From Chitinophaga pinensis (GTDB lineage: Bacteria; Bacteroidota; Bacteroidia; Flavobacteriales_D; Crocinitomicaceae): 64,000 nucleotides of DNA. A model generated the notes under the pieces. That model was given only the letters and a program-made list of their open reading frames with translations, did not search any database and was not told the origin of the DNA. Of this stretch, positions 51,796 to 59,496 are shown piece after piece. Made by a program: the position numbers and the translations under genes. The DNA is taken from contig CAMDNE010000009.1 in the NCBI GenBank assembly GCA_945902745.1, forward strand, positions 1-64,000, written 5' to 3'. Position 1 is the stretch's first letter. Every line of letters begins with the position of its first letter.

Positions 51796-51913
51796 GATGG
51801 TTTGATTGATTCAAAAACAAAGGTAATAATATTGAATTTCAAATGACATTTATATAATACTTATATAAGAAATTATTGGACATCTTGGACTTTCGTCTTT
51901 CATCCAAATTTAC

Positions 51914-51921
51914 TATCTTCG
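51914..51921 (+). promoter_or_regulatory. -7 promoter box for ileS
   Basis: TATCTTCG differs at one base from TAnnTTTG and lies 23 bases before the ATG at 51945. It would fall inside the gene if translation began at 51876, which argues for the later start. Confidence 0.45.
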
Positions 51922-51944
51922 CACATTCATATTTTCAAGGTACA

Positions 51945-54900
51945 ATGACGAAGAATTATCCAGAATACAAAGGGTTGAATTTGCCAAACGTGGCGAAAAC
52001 AGTGTTAGAAAAATGGCAGAACGAGAAAGTTTTCGAGCAATCTATTGCTACACGCGAAGGTCAAACGCCTTTTATTTTCTTTGAAGGGCCACCATCAGCG
52101 AATGGTTTACCTGGTATTCACCACGTTATGGGACGCGCTATCAAAGATATTTTTTGTCGCTACAAAACATTAAAAGGTTTTCAAGTTAAACGAAAAGCTG
52201 GTTGGGATACACACGGTTTGCCTGTTGAATTAGGGGTTGAAAAGGAACTTGGAATCACAAAAGAAGATATTGGAACAAAAATTTCTGTTGAAGATTACAA
52301 CAAAGCGTGTAAAGAAGCAGTAATGCGTTACACAGATATTTGGAATGACCTTACATTGAAAATGGGATATTGGGTGGATATGGAAGATCCATACATCACC
52401 TATGAACCAAAATACATGGAATCAGTTTGGTGGTTATTGGGTCAATTGTACGAGAAAAATCTCATGTATAAAGGATACACAATTCAACCATATTCGCCAA
52501 AAGCTGGAACAGGTTTGTCATCACACGAATTGAATCAACCGGGTTGTTATAGAGATGTAACTGACACGACAGTTGTTGCGCAGTTTAAAATTGTTGATGG
52601 CGAAAAATTACCGTTTGCCAAAAATGTAGGGTCAGGTCGTGACCTGACCCTGCATTTTTTGGCATGGACAACCACACCTTGGACTTTGTCTTCTAATACC
52701 GCATTGTGCGTTGGACCAAAAATAGAATACGTTTTAGTTCAATCATTTAATCAATATACGTTTGAACCAATCAATGTAATTCTTGCAAAGAATCTTGTTG
52801 GATATCAGTTTGCAAAAGGATTTCAAAACGTTGAAACCGCAAGTGAATTAACAAGTTTTAATTCTGGAGATAAAACTATCCCATATTTCATAGCTGGAGA
52901 ATGTTTAGGAAAAGACTTGATCGGAATCTCTTACGAGCAACTATTGCCATTTGCTTTACCTGCGGAAAATCCTGAAAATGCCTTTAAAGTAATTGGAGGT
53001 GATTTTGTAACAACGGAGGATGGAACAGGAATCGTACACATTGCCCCAACGTTTGGTGCTGATGATGCACGTGTTGCTAAAGATGCCGGAGTACCAGGAT
53101 TATTAGTGATTGACGATAAAGGAAATTTGGTTCCGCTTGTTGATCTTCAAGGGAAATTCAGACCAGAAATGGGAGATTATGCCGGAATGTATGTCAAAAA
53201 TGAATATTATGACGACGGTCAAGCACCAGAAAGATCAGCAGATGTTCAAATTGCAATTCAATTAAAAACAGAAAACAAAGCCTTTAAGGTTGAGAAATAT
53301 GTCCACAGTTATCCACATTGTTGGAGAACGGACAAACCAGTATTGTATTATCCGTTGGATTCTTGGTTCATCAAAGTAACTGATGTCAAAGAACGCATGA
53401 TGCAATTGAACAATACTATCAATTGGAAACCTGAATCAACTGGTTCTGGACGATTCGGTAAATGGTTGGAAAATGTAAATGATTGGAACCTTTCTCGTTC
53501 ACGTTATTGGGGAATCCCAATTCCAATTTGGTCGACAGAAGAGGGTGATGAACGTATTTGTATTTCATCTGCTGGTCAACTAAAAAATGAATGTGATAAA
53601 GCAATTTCTGCAGGTTTAATGACTTTAAATCCTTTAGCGGATTTTGATGCAACGGATATGTCCAAAGAGAATTATGCAAAAATTGATTTGCATAAAAACT
53701 ATGTGGATCAAATTGTTTTGGTTTCTCCAACAGGAAAACCGATGAAGCGTGAAGCAGATTTGATTGATGTTTGGTTTGATTCGGGCGCAATGCCTTATGC
53801 ACAGTGGCATTATCCATTTGAAAACAAAGCATTAATTGATAATCACGAAGGTTATCCTGGTGACTTCATTGCCGAAGGGGTAGATCAAACAAGAGGTTGG
53901 TTCTATACATTGCATGCAATTGCGACGATGGTTTTTGATTCTGTGGCATATAAAAATGTTGTTTCTAACGGTTTGGTTTTAGATAAAAATGGTCAGAAAA
54001 TGTCTAAACGTTTGGGCAATGCAATTGATCCATTTTCAACCTTAGAAACGTATGGCGCTGATGCTGCTCGTTGGTATATGATTACCAATGCCCAACCTTG
54101 GGATAATTTAAAATTTGATTTAGAAGGAATAACGGAAGTTCAACGTAAATTCTTCGGAACATTATATAATACGTATTCGTTCTTCACTTTGTACGCAAAT
54201 ATTGATGGATTTGATTATTCTGCTCAAGATATTCCGTTAAACGAGCGGCCAGAAATTGACCGTTGGGTACTTTCCAAATTACATTCTTTAATTCAAGAAG
54301 TTGATGGATCTTTCGATGAATACGAGCCGACTAAAGCGGGTCGATTAATTCAAGATTTTGTAAGTGATCAGTTATCCAATTGGTATGTGAGATTGTGTCG
54401 TCGTCGTTTCTGGAAAAGTGACGATTCAAAAGATAAATTGTCGGCCTATCAAACGTTGTATACGTGTTTAGAAACGGTTTCAATTTTGGGATCTCCAATT
54501 GCACCTTTCTTTATGGATCAATTATTTTCGGATTTGAATTCTGTGAGTAAAAGATTCGCCGTTTCATCTGTGCATTTAGTTGATTTCCCAAAAGTGAATA
54601 AAGCATTTATCAATGAGGAGTTAGAAGCTCAAATGGAGATTGCACAGCGAACTTCATCATTGGTTTTGGGACTACGAAAGAAAGAAAAAATCAGAGTAAG
54701 ACAGCCTTTGCAAAAAATAATGGTTCCTACTTTGAATAAAGCGTTTTCAGATAACATCATGCACGTTAAAGAATTGATCTTATCAGAAGTGAATGTCAAG
54801 GAATTGGAATTATTGAGCGAAGACAACAGTGTTTTAGTGAAAAGTATTAAAGCAAATTTCAAAACAATAGGACCGAAATATGGCAAGCAAATGAAATCAA

Positions 54901-55361
54901 TTGCGGCTATGGTTGGTCAAATGACAAGCGAAGATATTTCAAAAGTGGAAGAGAATAACGGTTGGAAAGGAGAAATTGACGGAGAAGTTATTGCGTTGGA
55001 TTTAGCTGATTTCGAAATTGCAGCACAAGATATTCCAGGATGGCTAGTTGCTACAGAAGGTGGTTTAACTGTCGCGTTGGATATTACAATTTCTGAGCAA
55101 TTAAAAGCGGAAGGAATTGCACGTGAATTAATTAATAGGGTTCAAAATTTAAGAAAAGATTCAGGTTTAGATGTAACAGATCGTATTGTGTTAACTGTTG
55201 ATACAACTGAATTTATTCAGCATGCGATTCAAGCAAATCATGAATATGTGTGCAATGAAGTTTTGGCGAATGAAATACTTTTTGCAAATCTTGGAACGGA
55301 TGCTTTATTAACTGATTTAGAGTTAGAAGGTGATTCTAAAATTGGAATTGTGAAACAATAG
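51945..55361 (+). CDS. ileS: isoleucyl-tRNA synthetase
   Basis: About 1138 residues, a class I synthetase that charges tRNA-Ile. The family opening is MTKNYPEYKGLNLPNVAKTV, the HIGH-type motif is PGIHHVMGRA (about 57-66), the editing domain includes FLAWTTTPWTLSSNTAL, and the KMSKS loop is GQKMSKRLGN. The tRNA-binding C-terminal domain follows, with long eukaryote-like extensions, as is normal in Bacteroidota. I chose the ATG at 51945 because homologues begin here and a promoter box lies just upstream. Residues 225-240 (AKNVGSGRDLTLHFLA) are encoded by a large palindrome, discussed separately. No T-box leader is present. Confidence 0.96.
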   Translation: MTKNYPEYKGLNLPNVAKTVLEKWQNEKVFEQSIATREGQTPFIFFEGPPSANGLPGIHHVMGRAIKDIFCRYKTLKGFQVKRKAGWDTHGLPVELGVEKELGITKEDIGTKISVEDYNKACKEAVMRYTDIWNDLTLKMGYWVDMEDPYITYEPKYMESVWWLLGQLYEKNLMYKGYTIQPYSPKAGTGLSSHELNQPGCYRDVTDTTVVAQFKIVDGEKLPFAKNVGSGRDLTLHFLAWTTTPWTLSSNTALCVGPKIEYVLVQSFNQYTFEPINVILAKNLVGYQFAKGFQNVETASELTSFNSGDKTIPYFIAGECLGKDLIGISYEQLLPFALPAENPENAFKVIGGDFVTTEDGTGIVHIAPTFGADDARVAKDAGVPGLLVIDDKGNLVPLVDLQGKFRPEMGDYAGMYVKNEYYDDGQAPERSADVQIAIQLKTENKAFKVEKYVHSYPHCWRTDKPVLYYPLDSWFIKVTDVKERMMQLNNTINWKPESTGSGRFGKWLENVNDWNLSRSRYWGIPIPIWSTEEGDERICISSAGQLKNECDKAISAGLMTLNPLADFDATDMSKENYAKIDLHKNYVDQIVLVSPTGKPMKREADLIDVWFDSGAMPYAQWHYPFENKALIDNHEGYPGDFIAEGVDQTRGWFYTLHAIATMVFDSVAYKNVVSNGLVLDKNGQKMSKRLGNAIDPFSTLETYGADAARWYMITNAQPWDNLKFDLEGITEVQRKFFGTLYNTYSFFTLYANIDGFDYSAQDIPLNERPEIDRWVLSKLHSLIQEVDGSFDEYEPTKAGRLIQDFVSDQLSNWYVRLCRRRFWKSDDSKDKLSAYQTLYTCLETVSILGSPIAPFFMDQLFSDLNSVSKRFAVSSVHLVDFPKVNKAFINEELEAQMEIAQRTSSLVLGLRKKEKIRVRQPLQKIMVPTLNKAFSDNIMHVKELILSEVNVKELELLSEDNSVLVKSIKANFKTIGPKYGKQMKSIAAMVGQMTSEDISKVEENNGWKGEIDGEVIALDLADFEIAAQDIPGWLVATEGGLTVALDITISEQLKAEGIARELINRVQNLRKDSGLDVTDRIVLTVDTTEFIQHAIQANHEYVCNEVLANEILFANLGTDALLTDLELEGDSKIGIVKQ
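52616..52664. repeat. REP-like palindrome inside ileS
   Basis: The left arm (52616-52638, TGCC then A5 then TGTAGGGTCAGGTC) and the right arm (52641-52664, GACCTGACCCTGCA then T6 then GGCA) are inverted copies except for one A/T length difference and one base, with a 2-base centre. The core GGGTCAGGTC is GC-rich in an AT-rich gene, and the whole unit is read in frame. Confidence 0.93.
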
Positions 55362-55377
55362 AGATTGGGAGATTTTT

Positions 55378-55473
55378 GAAACACATAGGCACATAGGTCA
55401 CATAGTTGTTTGGTCCAAATGCTTCATAGTATTAGTGCAAATTTTGAAACACATAGGCACATAGGTCACATAG
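55378..55473. repeat. direct repeat pair of CACATAGG type after ileS
   Basis: GAAACACATAGGCACATAGG, continuing TCACATAG, occurs at 55378-55405 and again at 55446-55473, identical over 28 bases, 68 bases apart. Its core CACATAG is the reverse complement of the CTATGTG core in the downstream arrays. Confidence 0.9.
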
Positions 55474-55522
55474 ATGTTATACTTACATTTATGTTCTGAT
55501 TGAAAAATATTTTTTACCCAGG

Positions 55523-55816
55523 TAATCCTATGTTTTCTATGTTTCTATGTGGTTAATATTTTCTTTTGCCCCAAAGTACTTAGAGAATACTATATGTTAT
55601 AATCATCTAAAATTTCCAACTAGTTAATCCTATGTTTTCTATGTTCCTATGTGGTTAATATTTTCTTTTGCCCCAAAGCACTTAGAGAATACTATATGTT
55701 TCAATCATCTAAAATTTCCACCTTGTTAATCCTATGTTTTCTATGTTTCTATGTGGTTAATATTTTCTTTTGCCCCAAAGCACTTAGATAATAATATATT
55801 TTTCAATCATCTAATT
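55523..55816. repeat. tandem array of 102-base units ending in the GxxExxY gene tail
   Basis: Units start at 55523, 55625 and 55727, so the period is 102 bases. Each begins TAATCCTATGTTTTCTATGT, continues through GTGGTTAATATTTTCTTTTG and CCCCAAAG(C/T)ACTTAGA, and ends AATCATCTAA. In the third unit that end is the last codons and stop of the GxxExxY gene; in the first two it is followed by AATTTCCA, unlike the gene. Confidence 0.92.
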
Positions 55817-56219
55817 CATTGAAAAGATGATTAACAAAAGTCTTTTGTCCATCCTTAAAAATATTTGTGCAATTGAAATTTATTAATATTCCTTTTGGGA
55901 TTTCTAGCAATTTCATATATGTTAGAAGTTGTGCTTCATGTATCGGATGAATTTTCTCAACTGATTTGAGTTCAATAACTATTCTATTTTCAATAAGTAA
56001 ATCACACTTTAAATCTGTATTTAGTGTTTCACCTTTATAACAAACAGGAACATTGAATTCTGATTCAAACATGATTTTTCGCAGTTCTAATTCGTGTTTA
56101 AGACATTTGTGATAAACGCTTTCAAGTAAGCCAGGACCCAAAGATTTATGCACATCCATCGATGCTCCTAAAATTTGATAAGTTAATTCATTAATATCTG
56201 TTTTTGTATAAAACACCAT
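55803..56219 (-). CDS. GxxExxY family protein (PD-(D/E)XK nuclease-like)
   Basis: A 138-residue protein of the GxxExxY family, named for Gly30, Glu33 and Tyr36 (GPGLLESVYHKCL). The core fits a small nuclease-like fold: CDLLIENRIVIELKSVEKI carries the Asp, Glu and Lys expected of PD-(D/E)XK sites, then HEAQLLTYMKLL and PKGILINFN. The family is common in Bacteroidota as scattered orphan genes of unknown role. It is flanked on both sides by tandem repeats of unlike units, and its terminal codons have been copied into the downstream array. Its base composition matches its neighbours. Confidence 0.9.
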   Translation of the reverse strand: MVFYTKTDINELTYQILGASMDVHKSLGPGLLESVYHKCLKHELELRKIMFESEFNVPVCYKGETLNTDLKCDLLIENRIVIELKSVEKIHPIHEAQLLTYMKLLEIPKGILINFNCTNIFKDGQKTFVNHLFNELDD

Positions 56220-56329
56220 AAATTTCTAATTTACTTGAAGTTAACACAATTATTTTAAAAATGCAATCTCAAAATCTATATTCTCTTTGTTCCTAGGTGT
56301 TAAAAAACTATTTAGACTTTTCCTTTTTT

Positions 56330-56620
56330 TAAATAACTATGTGTCCCATGTGTCTATAGTGTTTCATTTTATTTCTATTTTTTTTTAAATAACAACTATG
56401 TGCCCTATGTTCCTATGTGTTTCATTTTATTTCTATTGTGTTTTTAAATAACAACTATGTTCTCTTTGTTCCTATGTGTTTCATTTTATTTCTATTTTTT
56501 TTTAAATAACAACTATGTTCTCTTTGTTCCACTTCGATAAACTCAGTGCATCGCTATGTGTTTCATTTTATTTCTATTGTGTTTTTAAATAACAACTATG
56601 TTCTCTTTGTTCCTATGTGG
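56330..56620. repeat. tandem array of 56-59-base units before polA
   Basis: Units marked by TAAATAAC start at 56330, 56386, 56445, 56503 and 56586. A typical unit reads TTAAATAACAACTATGTTCT, CTTTGTTCCTATGTG, then TTTCATTTTATTTCTATTG. The step from 56503 to 56586 is 83 because 24 bases are inserted at 56531-56554. A partial unit (TTCTCTTTGTTCCTAGGTGT) lies at 56281-56300. No gene is visible between 56220 and 56670. Confidence 0.92.
56531..56554. repeat. 24-base insert within the tandem array
   Basis: ACTTCGATAAACTCAGTGCA followed by TCGC sits exactly where neighbouring units read TTCC then TATGTG, so the unit is intact apart from this insert. Its core TCGATAAACTC matches, at 10 of 11 positions, TCGACAAACTC on the minus strand of the terminator loop at 49147-49183. 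Confidence 0.85.
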
Positions 56621-56670
56621 TTAAAAAAAATATCCTAGCTTTAAACTCTCATTACTAATTGTTACAAAAA

Positions 56671-59496
56671 ATGCTTACACCGAACATTGATAAAAAACTT
56701 TTTCTTCTTGACGCTTATGCACTCATATACCGTGCTTATTTTGCTTTTGCGAAGAATCCTCGTGTAAATTCGAAAGGTCAAAATACTTCTGCGGCATTTG
56801 GATTTACGAATGTTTTAATCGATGTGATAAAAAATGAAAAACCAACGCATTTAGCCGTTGTTTTTGACCCTCCAGGTGGTTCAACGCATAGAATTGAACA
56901 ATTTGAAGCCTATAAAGGGCAACGTGAAGCAATGCCTGAAGATATTCGTTCAATGATTTTACCAATAAAAAAAATTGTTGAAGCATTCAATGTCCCGATG
57001 ATTGAAATGGCAGGTCACGAAGCAGATGACGTGATTGGCGCTATGGCAAAAGTTGCTGAAAAAAGAGGCTATACAACTTATATGATGACGCCAGATAAAG
57101 ATTACGGTCAACTGGTTTCAGAAAATATTTTCATGTTCAAACCGGGTAGAGGTGGTAATCCACCTGAAATCATGGGTGTAAAAGAAGTATGTGAGAAATT
57201 TGAAATTGAACATCCTTTGCAAGTAATTGATATTCTTGGTCTTTGGGGTGATGCTTCTGATAATATTCCTGGAATTCCTGGAATTGGCGAGAAAACTGCC
57301 AAGTTATTGATTCAGAAATATGGTTCTTTAGAAGGAATTATAGAAAATGCACACGAATTAAAAGGAAAACAACAAGAAAACGTTATAAATTTTGCGGAAC
57401 AAGGACGTGTTTCAAAAATGCTTGCCACAATTACGATTGATTTAGAAGTTGAATTCAACGAAGAGCATTTGGTAATGTGTGATGTGGATGTAGAAAAGGT
57501 AAAAGACATTTTTACAGAATTAGAATTTAGAAATTTAGCGAGAAGGGTTATTGGGGAGGATATTGAATTAACATCAACGCCTTCTGCAAGCAATGAAAAT
57601 AATTCCAACGGTTCAAATCAATTGGATTTATTTGGAATGCAAAGTTTAATTGTAGAACAGAATCCAACTGAAACAGCTGATTATAAAACGATCGCAACTG
57701 AAAAACCTTCTTATCACTTAATAACAAAGGCTGACGAAAGAAAGGAATTGTTAGAAATTTTAATGAACCAAAAACAAGTGTGTTTCGATACTGAAACGAC
57801 TGATTTGGATGCATTACATGCTGATTTAGTGGGAATGTCTTTTTCATATAAAGAACGAGAAGCATTTTACGTTGCAATTCCAGCTGATTTTGAACAAGCA
57901 AAAGCGATTGTAGAGGAATTCAATCCATTTTTCACTTCAGCAACGATTGAAAAAATTGCACACAATATTAAATACGATTTAAAAGTCTTGAATCGTTATG
58001 GAATTCAAGTTGCAAGCCCAACGTTCGATACAATGATTGCGCATTATTTGATTAATCCGGAGTCGAAGCAAAGTATGGATTTCTTGGCAGAATTTTACCT
58101 AAAATACAAGCCAGTTTCCATTGAAGCTTTAATTGGTAAAAAAGGAAAATCGCAAGGAAACATGCGTGATTTGAAACCAGAAGAAATTTCAGATTATGCT
58201 TGTGAAGATGCGGATATTACCTTTCAATTAAAGCAATTATTCGAACCTGAAATTCAAAAGGAGCACTTGAAAGAGTTGTTTTATGGTATGGAAATGCCAT
58301 TGGTTGAAGTGTTAAAAGCAATTGAGCAAGAAGGAATTGCAATTGATGTCCAAGGATTAAAAGAATATTCAAAGCAATTAGAAATTACATTGCTCGATTT
58401 AGAAACGAAGATAAAAGAAGAAGCAGGAGTGCCATTTAATTTGGATTCTCCAAAACAATTGGGCGAGGTGCTTTTTGACCATTTGAAAATTTCTGCAAAA
58501 GCTAAAAAGACTAAAACGGGTCAATATGCAACAGGTGAAGACATTCTTCAAAAGCATGAGAAAGACCATCCAATTATCCCAATGATTTTGGAATACCGTC
58601 AATTGAGAAAATTGAAAAGCACGTATGTGGATCCTTTGCCGCTGTTAACAGACAAAGTTGATGGTAGAATTCATACGAATTTCATGCAAACTGTTACATC
58701 AACTGGTCGTTTGAGTTCAAACAATCCCAACCTTCAAAACATTCCTATTCGAACAGAAAAAGGAAGAGAAATACGTAAAGCATTTATTGCTCGCAGTGAA
58801 GATTTTATTTTGATGGCGGCAGATTATTCTCAAATTGAATTGCGTATAATTGCTGCTTTGAGTGGGGATAAAAATATGATTGAAGCGTTCAAAAGTGGTC
58901 AGGATATTCACATTGCAACAGCATCAAAAGTATTTCATGTTCCCATTGATGAGGTTACGCGTGAACAACGAAGCGCAGCAAAGGCTGTTAATTTTGGAAT
59001 AATATATGGCCAATCAGCCTTTGGATTATCTCAAAATTTGAATATTTCTAGAACAGAAGCAAAATCAATTATTGATAGCTATTTCGAGCAATATTCTACG
59101 ATTAAAACATACATGGACAGCACAATCGCATTGGCTAGAGAAAAAGGGTATGTTGAAACAATCATGCAACGCAGACGTTATTTGTCAGATATTAATTCCG
59201 CCAATGCAGTGGTTCGTGGATTTGCAGAACGAAATGCTATCAATGCACCGATACAAGGTTCAGCTGCTGATGTCATTAAAATGGCAATGATTTCTGTTTA
59301 TAATGCGATGAAAAAGCAAAACGTAAAATCTAAAATGATTTTACAAGTGCATGATGAATTGGTCTTTGATGTTGAAAAATCTGAAATTGAGTTGATGAAA
59401 AAACTCATCAAAGAAGCAATGGAATCTGCTGTTGATTTGGTTGTTCCGATGGAAGTTGAAGTTGGGATGGGAGAGAATTGGTTAGACGCGCACTAA
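56671..59496 (+). CDS. polA: DNA polymerase I
   Basis: About 941 residues, full length. The 5'-3' exonuclease domain (about 8-295) has LFLLDAYALIYRAYFAF, VVFDPPGGSTHR, GHEADDVIGA and DNIPGIPGIGEKTAKLL. The 3'-5' proofreading domain keeps its acidic site (CFDTETTDLDALHADL) and KIAHNIKYDLKVL. The polymerase domain has TGRLSSNNPNLQNIPIRTEK, motif A AADYSQIELRIIAALSGD, the O-helix REQRSAAKAVNFGIIYGQSA and motif C QVHDELVFDV. It acts in Okazaki fragment processing and repair. I chose the ATG at 56671 rather than the TTG four codons upstream. Its stop overlaps that of the convergent helicase gene. Confidence 0.97.
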   Translation: MLTPNIDKKLFLLDAYALIYRAYFAFAKNPRVNSKGQNTSAAFGFTNVLIDVIKNEKPTHLAVVFDPPGGSTHRIEQFEAYKGQREAMPEDIRSMILPIKKIVEAFNVPMIEMAGHEADDVIGAMAKVAEKRGYTTYMMTPDKDYGQLVSENIFMFKPGRGGNPPEIMGVKEVCEKFEIEHPLQVIDILGLWGDASDNIPGIPGIGEKTAKLLIQKYGSLEGIIENAHELKGKQQENVINFAEQGRVSKMLATITIDLEVEFNEEHLVMCDVDVEKVKDIFTELEFRNLARRVIGEDIELTSTPSASNENNSNGSNQLDLFGMQSLIVEQNPTETADYKTIATEKPSYHLITKADERKELLEILMNQKQVCFDTETTDLDALHADLVGMSFSYKEREAFYVAIPADFEQAKAIVEEFNPFFTSATIEKIAHNIKYDLKVLNRYGIQVASPTFDTMIAHYLINPESKQSMDFLAEFYLKYKPVSIEALIGKKGKSQGNMRDLKPEEISDYACEDADITFQLKQLFEPEIQKEHLKELFYGMEMPLVEVLKAIEQEGIAIDVQGLKEYSKQLEITLLDLETKIKEEAGVPFNLDSPKQLGEVLFDHLKISAKAKKTKTGQYATGEDILQKHEKDHPIIPMILEYRQLRKLKSTYVDPLPLLTDKVDGRIHTNFMQTVTSTGRLSSNNPNLQNIPIRTEKGREIRKAFIARSEDFILMAADYSQIELRIIAALSGDKNMIEAFKSGQDIHIATASKVFHVPIDEVTREQRSAAKAVNFGIIYGQSAFGLSQNLNISRTEAKSIIDSYFEQYSTIKTYMDSTIALAREKGYVETIMQRRRYLSDINSANAVVRGFAERNAINAPIQGSAADVIKMAMISVYNAMKKQNVKSKMILQVHDELVFDVEKSEIELMKKLIKEAMESAVDLVVPMEVEVGMGENWLDAH

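Follow-up and report, generated by a model that had tools for sequence, protein, structure and literature searches.

An orphan gene between inverted arms and two arrays

What is a single small gene doing between two unlike tandem arrays in the 1.3-kb gap between ileS and polA, and do the gene and the repeats belong together? In the window, by which we mean the whole 64-kb stretch of DNA analysed, ileS (51876-55361) and polA (56659-59496), both with identities checked by HMM, flank an island whose single gene, on the minus strand (55803-56219), encodes a GxxExxY/PDDEXK_3 protein of 138 aa. An earlier reading made from the letters alone (the sequence-only reading) had placed this gene between a 102-base and a 56-59-base array, and HMM searches, TRF and our repeat search agree. 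As set out below, gene and repeats probably form one undescribed, self-spreading partnership, because most of the relatives examined sit between similar arrays, with a word that tends to match the branch of the nuclease.

The 102-bp array (55523-55814, plus strand; TRF and repeat search) has 2.9 copies with 94% matches, carries one three-word unit per copy and overlaps the 3' end of the gene. The array of 56-59-bp three-word units (56324-56627, plus strand; TRF, repeat search and word count) is resolved by TRF as 3.6 copies of 59 bp at 56324-56530 with 90% matches, and reaches 56622 by repeat search, with start spacings of 59, 58 and 83. The spacing of 83 arises because a 24-nt REP-like insert (56530-56553, plus strand), recognised from the sequence and an insert survey, separates words 2 and 3 of one unit there. 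Adjoining the gene start is a degenerate three-word unit (56271-56307, plus strand), a direct repeat with 2 mismatches to the pattern.

An outer arm with three words in CACATAG orientation lies on the minus strand at 55377-55410, with a second copy on the same strand at 55445-55480 (inverted and direct repeat search, word count). The outer direct pair, earlier given as 28 bases, does exist, but it is 37 nt long and 97% alike, at 55374 and 55442. Its orientation opposite to the arrays was read correctly: 55377-55410 is 94% complementary to 56391-56424 over 34 nt, and both outer copies are 92-94% complementary to the unit at 56389-56424 over 34-36 nt. The gene is therefore enclosed by inverted arms in addition to the arrays, and terminal inverted repeats around the gene, an insertion sequence feature, are present with these lengths and complementarities. 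The CTATGTG/CACATAG words are indeed concentrated in the island: 25 of the 33 CTATGT/ACATAG words in the window fall inside its 1,309 nt, compared with 0.17 expected from the rate outside.

The GxxExxY protein resembles a minimal Cas4/RecB-like nuclease

The protein matches TIGR04256 (E 3.9e-42, 143.3 bits against a curated score of 35) and PF13366 (E 7.6e-41, 139.6 bits against 22), the latter being its sole Pfam match at E 0.001; no Y1 HUH transposase domain (PF01797) was found at that threshold. An alignment of 23 proteins has conserved columns at E33, D73, E83-x-K85 and Q97-x3-Y101, among the catalytic columns by which, together with the family matches and the structural model, the gene was identified. 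The order E, D, ExK, QxxxY is that of the motifs of RecB/Cas4-type PD-(D/E)XK nucleases. None of the invariant or nearly invariant columns of the 23 proteins is a cysteine, and the conserved Fe-S cysteines of Cas4 are lacking.

The AlphaFold2 model of the window protein has a pLDDT of 96.5. Its best structural match is 4ic1 (SSO0001), which we take to be a Cas4, at a Foldseek E of 2.4e-3, with no Foldseek row below 0.001; with VIA-align, 4ic1 is the sole entry with a Z of at least 8 (Z 9.3, rmsd 3.9 over 99 residues), and the lower entries, with middling Z values, were set aside. Among PADLOC models, those for Cas4 give weak matches, with a best E of 1e-4. A phmmer search for a solved structure gave a lone row, RpoS at E 0.08, which is not credible. 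Fold and motifs together support the window protein as a predicted minimal Cas4/RecB-like PD-(D/E)XK nuclease. A search with one CTYTGYG-type member matched 8 of 72,556 plasmid records and 0 of 50,697 phage records, and carriage by phages was rejected on this basis.

We found no function assigned to GxxExxY/PF13366 proteins in the open-access PMC literature, preprints excluded, and no description there of a link between GxxExxY genes and repeats. Three papers there mention the family, and then only in passing; the literature covered includes PMC8934634, PMC12085832, PMC9756366, PMC4679880, PMC5524665, PMC4990558 and PMC6006769.

Inverted word arms accompany GxxExxY genes in many genomes

Of 60 genomes from the taxonomic family of the window, 38 have a GxxExxY match and 22 have none; several of the genes are broken, with stops or as fragments. 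Our sample comprised 84 loci, namely 79 of the 83 rows from genomes other than the window's own (G000), the fragment L143 and four genes of G000. Short fragments were otherwise excluded, and the rows left out were G044:C70, G017:C29, G057:C120 and G021:C106. As a motif-free score we took, for each gene, the best local match of one 400-nt flank to the other in inverted orientation. In the window's family, with 63 of the first 64 loci used, the median score was 15.0 compared with 10.0 for 205 control ORFs from the same loci (p 2e-20) and 10.0 for 756 between-locus pairings (p 6e-23), and 33 of the 63 loci individually exceed the 99th percentile of the controls. Six-mer counts made without a preset motif showed a rise of TCTGCG, TCTGTG, CTCTGT and TTTGCG, plus plain AT-rich words. 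Words of the form [CT]T[ACT]TG[CT]G stood 8-11 nt apart in 71 cases (about 0.4 expected), and at least two of them lay inside 45 nt at 39 of the 63 loci versus 14 of 447 control windows. Many of the remaining loci have inverted pairs of other words.

A multi-phylum set gave a similar picture. It had 76 usable loci out of 80, mostly from Bacteroidota, with Cyanobacteria, Acidobacteria, Planctomycetota, Ignavibacteria and two archaeal contigs also represented. Because the 80 are the top matches to a CTYTGYG-type query, that type is over-represented. The median score was 15.5, compared with 10.0 in 129 control ORFs (p 1e-20); 33 of the 76 loci exceed the control 99th percentile individually, and word clusters are present at 71 of 76 loci versus 18 of 266 control windows, the word spacing peaking at 9-10 and 20-22 nt. 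As a neutral control, ribosomal protein S20 genes (30 of 30 loci used) were never above a score of 14.5 (0/30). Y1 transposase genes, including the RAYT group, exceeded it at 14 of 29 loci (29 of 30 used), without the word period.

The sequence-only reading had placed such repeats beside orphan GxxExxY genes in other Bacteroidota and had proposed enrichment over random genes as the test. The enrichment is strong, and the 76 multi-phylum loci carry it beyond Bacteroidota as well. The CTATGTG-type word that it named is the word of one clade; it is not universal, and several clade-linked words are in use. We regard the association of GxxExxY genes with inverted word arms as practically certain.

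At one locus (L064; G019:C10:165220-166269), two GxxExxY genes with identical scores form a tandem pair at a distance of 699 nt, and palindromic arms lie in between; here the gene-bearing unit itself seems to have been duplicated.

Several word types follow the protein clade, and CTATG copy number the matching gene

By sequence comparison, word type tracks protein clade for several types. The branch words are CTATGTG, CTYTGYG, AATCA, ATCTGTG/ATCTGCG, ATTCGTG, CTTAT and others; classes were assigned on the flanks by an automatic rule, which left 26 of the 84 loci without a class. On a tree of 83 proteins (L143 excluded), all 8 labels, with 'none' included, required 28 changes versus 49.9 when shuffled, and 0 of 200 shuffles reached so low a number. 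All seven AATCA loci fall together in a single clade (98*), as do the three CTCAA loci (96*), and the seven CTATG loci need 2 changes versus 6.8 shuffled (0/500). A 14-row clade (100*) consists of the CTATG and CTCAA loci plus four of the seven CTTA-type ones. The two largest classes cluster weakly, with 14 changes versus 17.2 shuffled for CTYTG and 10 versus 12.3 for AYCTG. In the AATCA and the CTATG group alike, just 2 of 21 locus pairs have neighbour genes in common, so the agreement of word and clade is not due to synteny. Genes within one genome have different words in 32 of 37 labelled pairs, about the level of random pairing, and the genome as such therefore does not set the word; in G000, the window's genome, the four genes have flank words CTATGTG, CTTTGTG/CTTAGTG, ATCTGTG and ATCTGCG/TTCTGCG.

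For the CTATG type, copy number is tied to the matching gene. The complete per-genome counts of CTATGTNNNCTATGT, copies beside the gene included, are 75, 73, 49, 21, 14 and 10 where a CTATG-class gene is present (six genomes). Among the 54 other genomes, G034 has 10 and G059 has 8, with no CTATG-clade gene among the matches found in either, and the remaining 52 have at most one; arrays equally common without the gene, the outcome named earlier as speaking against a link, did not occur. The broader CTNTGYGNNCTNTGYG has a median of 4.5 in the 38 genomes with a GxxExxY match versus 0 (maximum 4) in the 22 without (p 1e-6, genomes of one genus not being independent), and its reversed control shows no difference between the same two groups (p 0.16). 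Six genera include both states: g11, g12, g15 and g16 clearly agree with the trend, g18 does so slightly and g17 is opposite. AATCA units are barely dispersed: 10 of their 12 matches have a GxxExxY match no more than 400 nt away. No exact AATCA-unit match occurs in 3 of the 7 AATCA genomes (G013, G050, G058).

The CTATGTG unit in the window's genome

In G000 the three-word pattern has 79 matches, 64 of them exact and the rest with 1-2 mismatches; a reversed control pattern has 0. An alignment of 55 distinct copies defines a bounded 31-nt unit, CTATGTG-NN-CTATGT-KY-CTATGTG-KTTNAAA, in which conservation begins at the first C and fades past the A run. The A at 11 and the T at 25 are invariant (55/55 each) even though the search pattern left both free, and the first spacer is nearly free of conservation. 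By eye, the arrays are tandem duplications of the unit with neighbouring DNA. Plain slippage as the whole story was rejected because the unit is bounded, its words are conserved and its spacers are free. Many CTATGTG units are single arms. Where listed matches are opposite-strand neighbours less than 400 nt apart, the order is CACATAG then CTATGTG in 13 of 13 cases, with the orthologous gene islands of G000 and its sister species G037 taken separately; in the gene-less arm pairs of G010 the middles look unrelated by eye. A known RNA family was rejected as well, the search giving one sub-threshold snoRNA match (E 0.73).

Another interspersed sequence, with TTATGAATTATGA words around a CCGACCGAATGGGGAGGTAATTA core, adjoins several CTATGTG units, for example at L013, L015 and L023 of G000. 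In G010, a stop-bearing GxxExxY gene (L137) and a short remnant (L143) each lie between well-kept CTATGTG arms.

Turnover between sister species

The sister species G037 is about 94-96% alike around the island. It keeps the orthologous gene in the ileS-polA gap, with the 102-bp unit once versus three times in the window (by eye). A different G000 gene, L004 with arms GGCCACAGATGCACAGATTTT, is missing from G037 between neighbours about 90% alike; in this L004/L095 comparison the gene-bearing segment is present or absent, and the junction is not clean. Of the G000 sites, 24 were unmatched among the first 30 G037 loci and 23 of these were located in G037, 7 with a pattern match nearby and 16 read by eye. 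At the 16, the unit is absent in 9, partly absent in 1, present with an insert in 3, replaced by a different unit in 1 and unscorable in 2. Units and array length thus vary between the two species, as does the presence of one whole gene. The gene and repeats had been suggested to be one replicative or transposing unit; presence and absence, and a variant unit at several places, do point to dispersal, but no target duplication and no clean whole-unit or whole-element insertion was found at the changed G000/G037 sites.

The variant unit carries the 24-nt REP-like sequence CACTTCGATAAACTCAGTGCATCG, which lies directly before word 3 in 14 of 19 places among the examined G000/G037 loci (among them the window and L148, L160, L174, L176, L178, L180, L195, L198, L202 and L206). 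At L028/L202 the insert is present in G037 and missing in G000 with both spacers identical, a precise presence/absence. We compared 12 of the 14 insert-bearing units, leaving out L025 and L170 with degenerate or other words; the 12 represent 10 places, L160/L176 being orthologous and L174 contributing two tandem units. Among the 11 with a common centre, pairwise differences number 36/1,320 in the insert, 153/275 in the spacers and 10/660 in words 1-2, and the ATAAAC centre is found in 1 of 5 free insert copies too. We read this pattern as dispersal of a variant unit, one variant apparently having reached several places, and it hints that the spacers may be where units open and join. Alternatively, the insert may diverge little under a constraint of its own.

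Neighbouring array units point the same way, differing at 24/84 spacer, 132/1063 flank and 8/399 word positions, a comparison in which flanks were chosen at 80% identity or more and which is therefore biased toward spacers looking fast. At orthologous G000/G037 sites (14 locus pairs included, 12 units from 11 pairs scored), spacers are no faster than flanks (5/48 versus 165/1589), and the 0/228 word differences are ascertained because the G037 loci were picked as exact pattern matches.

A second pairing of orphan genes with short words

As a control orphan family we chose TIGR02436 genes (PF05635, 23S rRNA-intervening sequence protein), whose product we take to be a four-helix-bundle protein. 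In the window's family (L310-L339; 29 of 30 loci used), 19 of 29 are above 14.5, with a median of 17.0 and a period of 7, and CTYTGYG clusters occur beside 0 of the 29. Their inverted score is not lower than that of GxxExxY genes, so this score is not GxxExxY-specific; word and period are. A further set from nine genomes (L400-L429; six cyanobacteria, two acidobacteria and one planctomycete by title; 27 of 30 loci scored) passes at 20 of 27 loci, with a median of 24.0 and 664 exact 6-mer recurrences at 7 nt. The cyanobacterial words beside PF05635 genes include CCCCAGT, GGAGTCA and TTAGTTA, which to us look like STRR heptamers. A paper on TAACTGA heptamers states that a transfer mechanism is not evident, and its passages leave helix bundles unmentioned. 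The heptamer partnership may also account for the AT-rich words found next to CTATGTG units in G000 and, if the pairing of PF05635 with heptamers is true, the origin of the cyanobacterial STRR repeats would become directly testable.

Explanations of the association

As the best explanation of the whole, we lean slightly towards a widespread GxxExxY nuclease with its own repeat class, a REP/RAYT-like or homing-like chromosomal disseminating system. Each branch of the nuclease family would have its own short word; at least two words about one helical turn apart would make an arm, with inverted arms on either side of the gene. Acting singly or as an oligomer, the nuclease would recognise the words, a predicted recognition that we consider likely. 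It would cut within or next to the spacers; other copies would then serve as repair templates, with the words as short homologies, so that units move and mix and tandem arrays grow. This predicted cut-and-copy spread is put forward tentatively. A Cas4/RecB-type nuclease would here take the place of the HUH transposase in a REP/RAYT-like system. Just as tentative is the wider view of an unrecognised class in many bacterial phyla and some archaea, in which each branch would read its own word, break the free spacers and copy, mix and rewrite units; together with the PF05635-heptamer pairs, which would explain the cyanobacterial STRR, it would represent a general kind of orphan small gene with cognate phased-word repeats.

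The words could instead be sites useful to the host, bound by a domesticated GxxExxY protein in regulation, repair or chromosome organisation, with selection keeping the words and ordinary duplication making the copies. Words conserved while spacers vary freely, and a chromosomal gene whose ileS-polA position is kept in the sister species, would fit, but we hold this to be unlikely: sites and one gene were gained or lost between the sister species, 22 of 60 family genomes are without a match, some gene copies are broken, and the arms surround the gene itself as inverted pairs. Such arms are also what a conventional transposon would have, with a GxxExxY transposase moving gene and arms as terminal inverted repeats and the gene-less pairs being MITEs; the identical order of the gene-less arm pairs and the presence or absence of a gene between sister species agree with it. 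However, the middles of the gene-less pairs look unrelated by eye, many units are single arms, the G000/G037 sites have neither a clean junction nor a target duplication, and few plasmid and zero phage records match, and we consider a transposon of this kind distinctly unlikely.

A passive association, in which repeats of their own origin occupy crowded intergenic regions where small orphan genes merely land, strikes us as very improbable. The intergenic regions of G000 and G037 do carry several repeat types, and four-helix-bundle and Y1 transposase genes likewise have inverted flanks. Against this, word type tracks protein clade at non-syntenic sites, arms match better within than between loci, CTATGT copy number tracks the matching gene, and four-helix-bundle genes of the same genomes lack CTYTGYG clusters (0/29).

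If gene and repeats do form a disseminating system, the pairing gives GxxExxY/PF13366 proteins a candidate substrate, and gives dispersed repeats of the CTCTGTG, CTTTGCG or CTATGTG kind, for which the open-access PMC papers searched describe no agent that makes them, a likely source. The paired nucleases and words make up a natural set that might allow a DNA-recognition code to be worked out.

Comparison with known systems

With Cas4/RecB nucleases, the GxxExxY protein shares the fold (4ic1, Z 9.3), the motif order and the weak Cas4 HMM matches; it differs in its 138 aa without conserved cysteines in the alignment, and its gene is flanked by inverted word arms and not by a CRISPR-type array. 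A CRISPR array or Cas4 locus was rejected because the neighbours are ileS and polA, not cas1/cas2, and because the units are phased words with arms inverted around the gene. PD-(D/E)XK homing endonucleases have their gene inside an intron or intein and have their own sites. Like them, the GxxExxY system has a nuclease gene with its own sites, and break-and-copy spread is proposed here, but the gene stands between multi-copy site arrays in intergenic DNA; I-Bth0305I is a weak Foldseek row for the GxxExxY model. The 23S rRNA intervening-sequence ORF (PF05635) is likewise an orphan small gene between inverted short-word arms, but the protein family is unrelated and the word period is 7 nt versus 8-11 for GxxExxY.

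A REP is a palindromic hairpin with a characteristic tetranucleotide, whereas the repeat here is built from phased words, two or three in number, separated by free spacers, and a PD-(D/E)XK nuclease stands where RAYT has its defining HUH transposase. The likeness lies in an orphan chromosomal gene with inverted copies of a short dispersed repeat on both sides, in non-autonomous pairs elsewhere in the genome and, for the CTATG type only (AATCA being barely dispersed), in dispersed copies tied to the matching gene. Excerpts on REP/REPIN elements and RAYT (Y1 HUH) transposases are found in PMC3116915 and PMC2817692. We rate the GxxExxY-repeat system as categorically new, and REP/RAYT as the precedent for its general kind, an orphan gene with cognate dispersed repeats.
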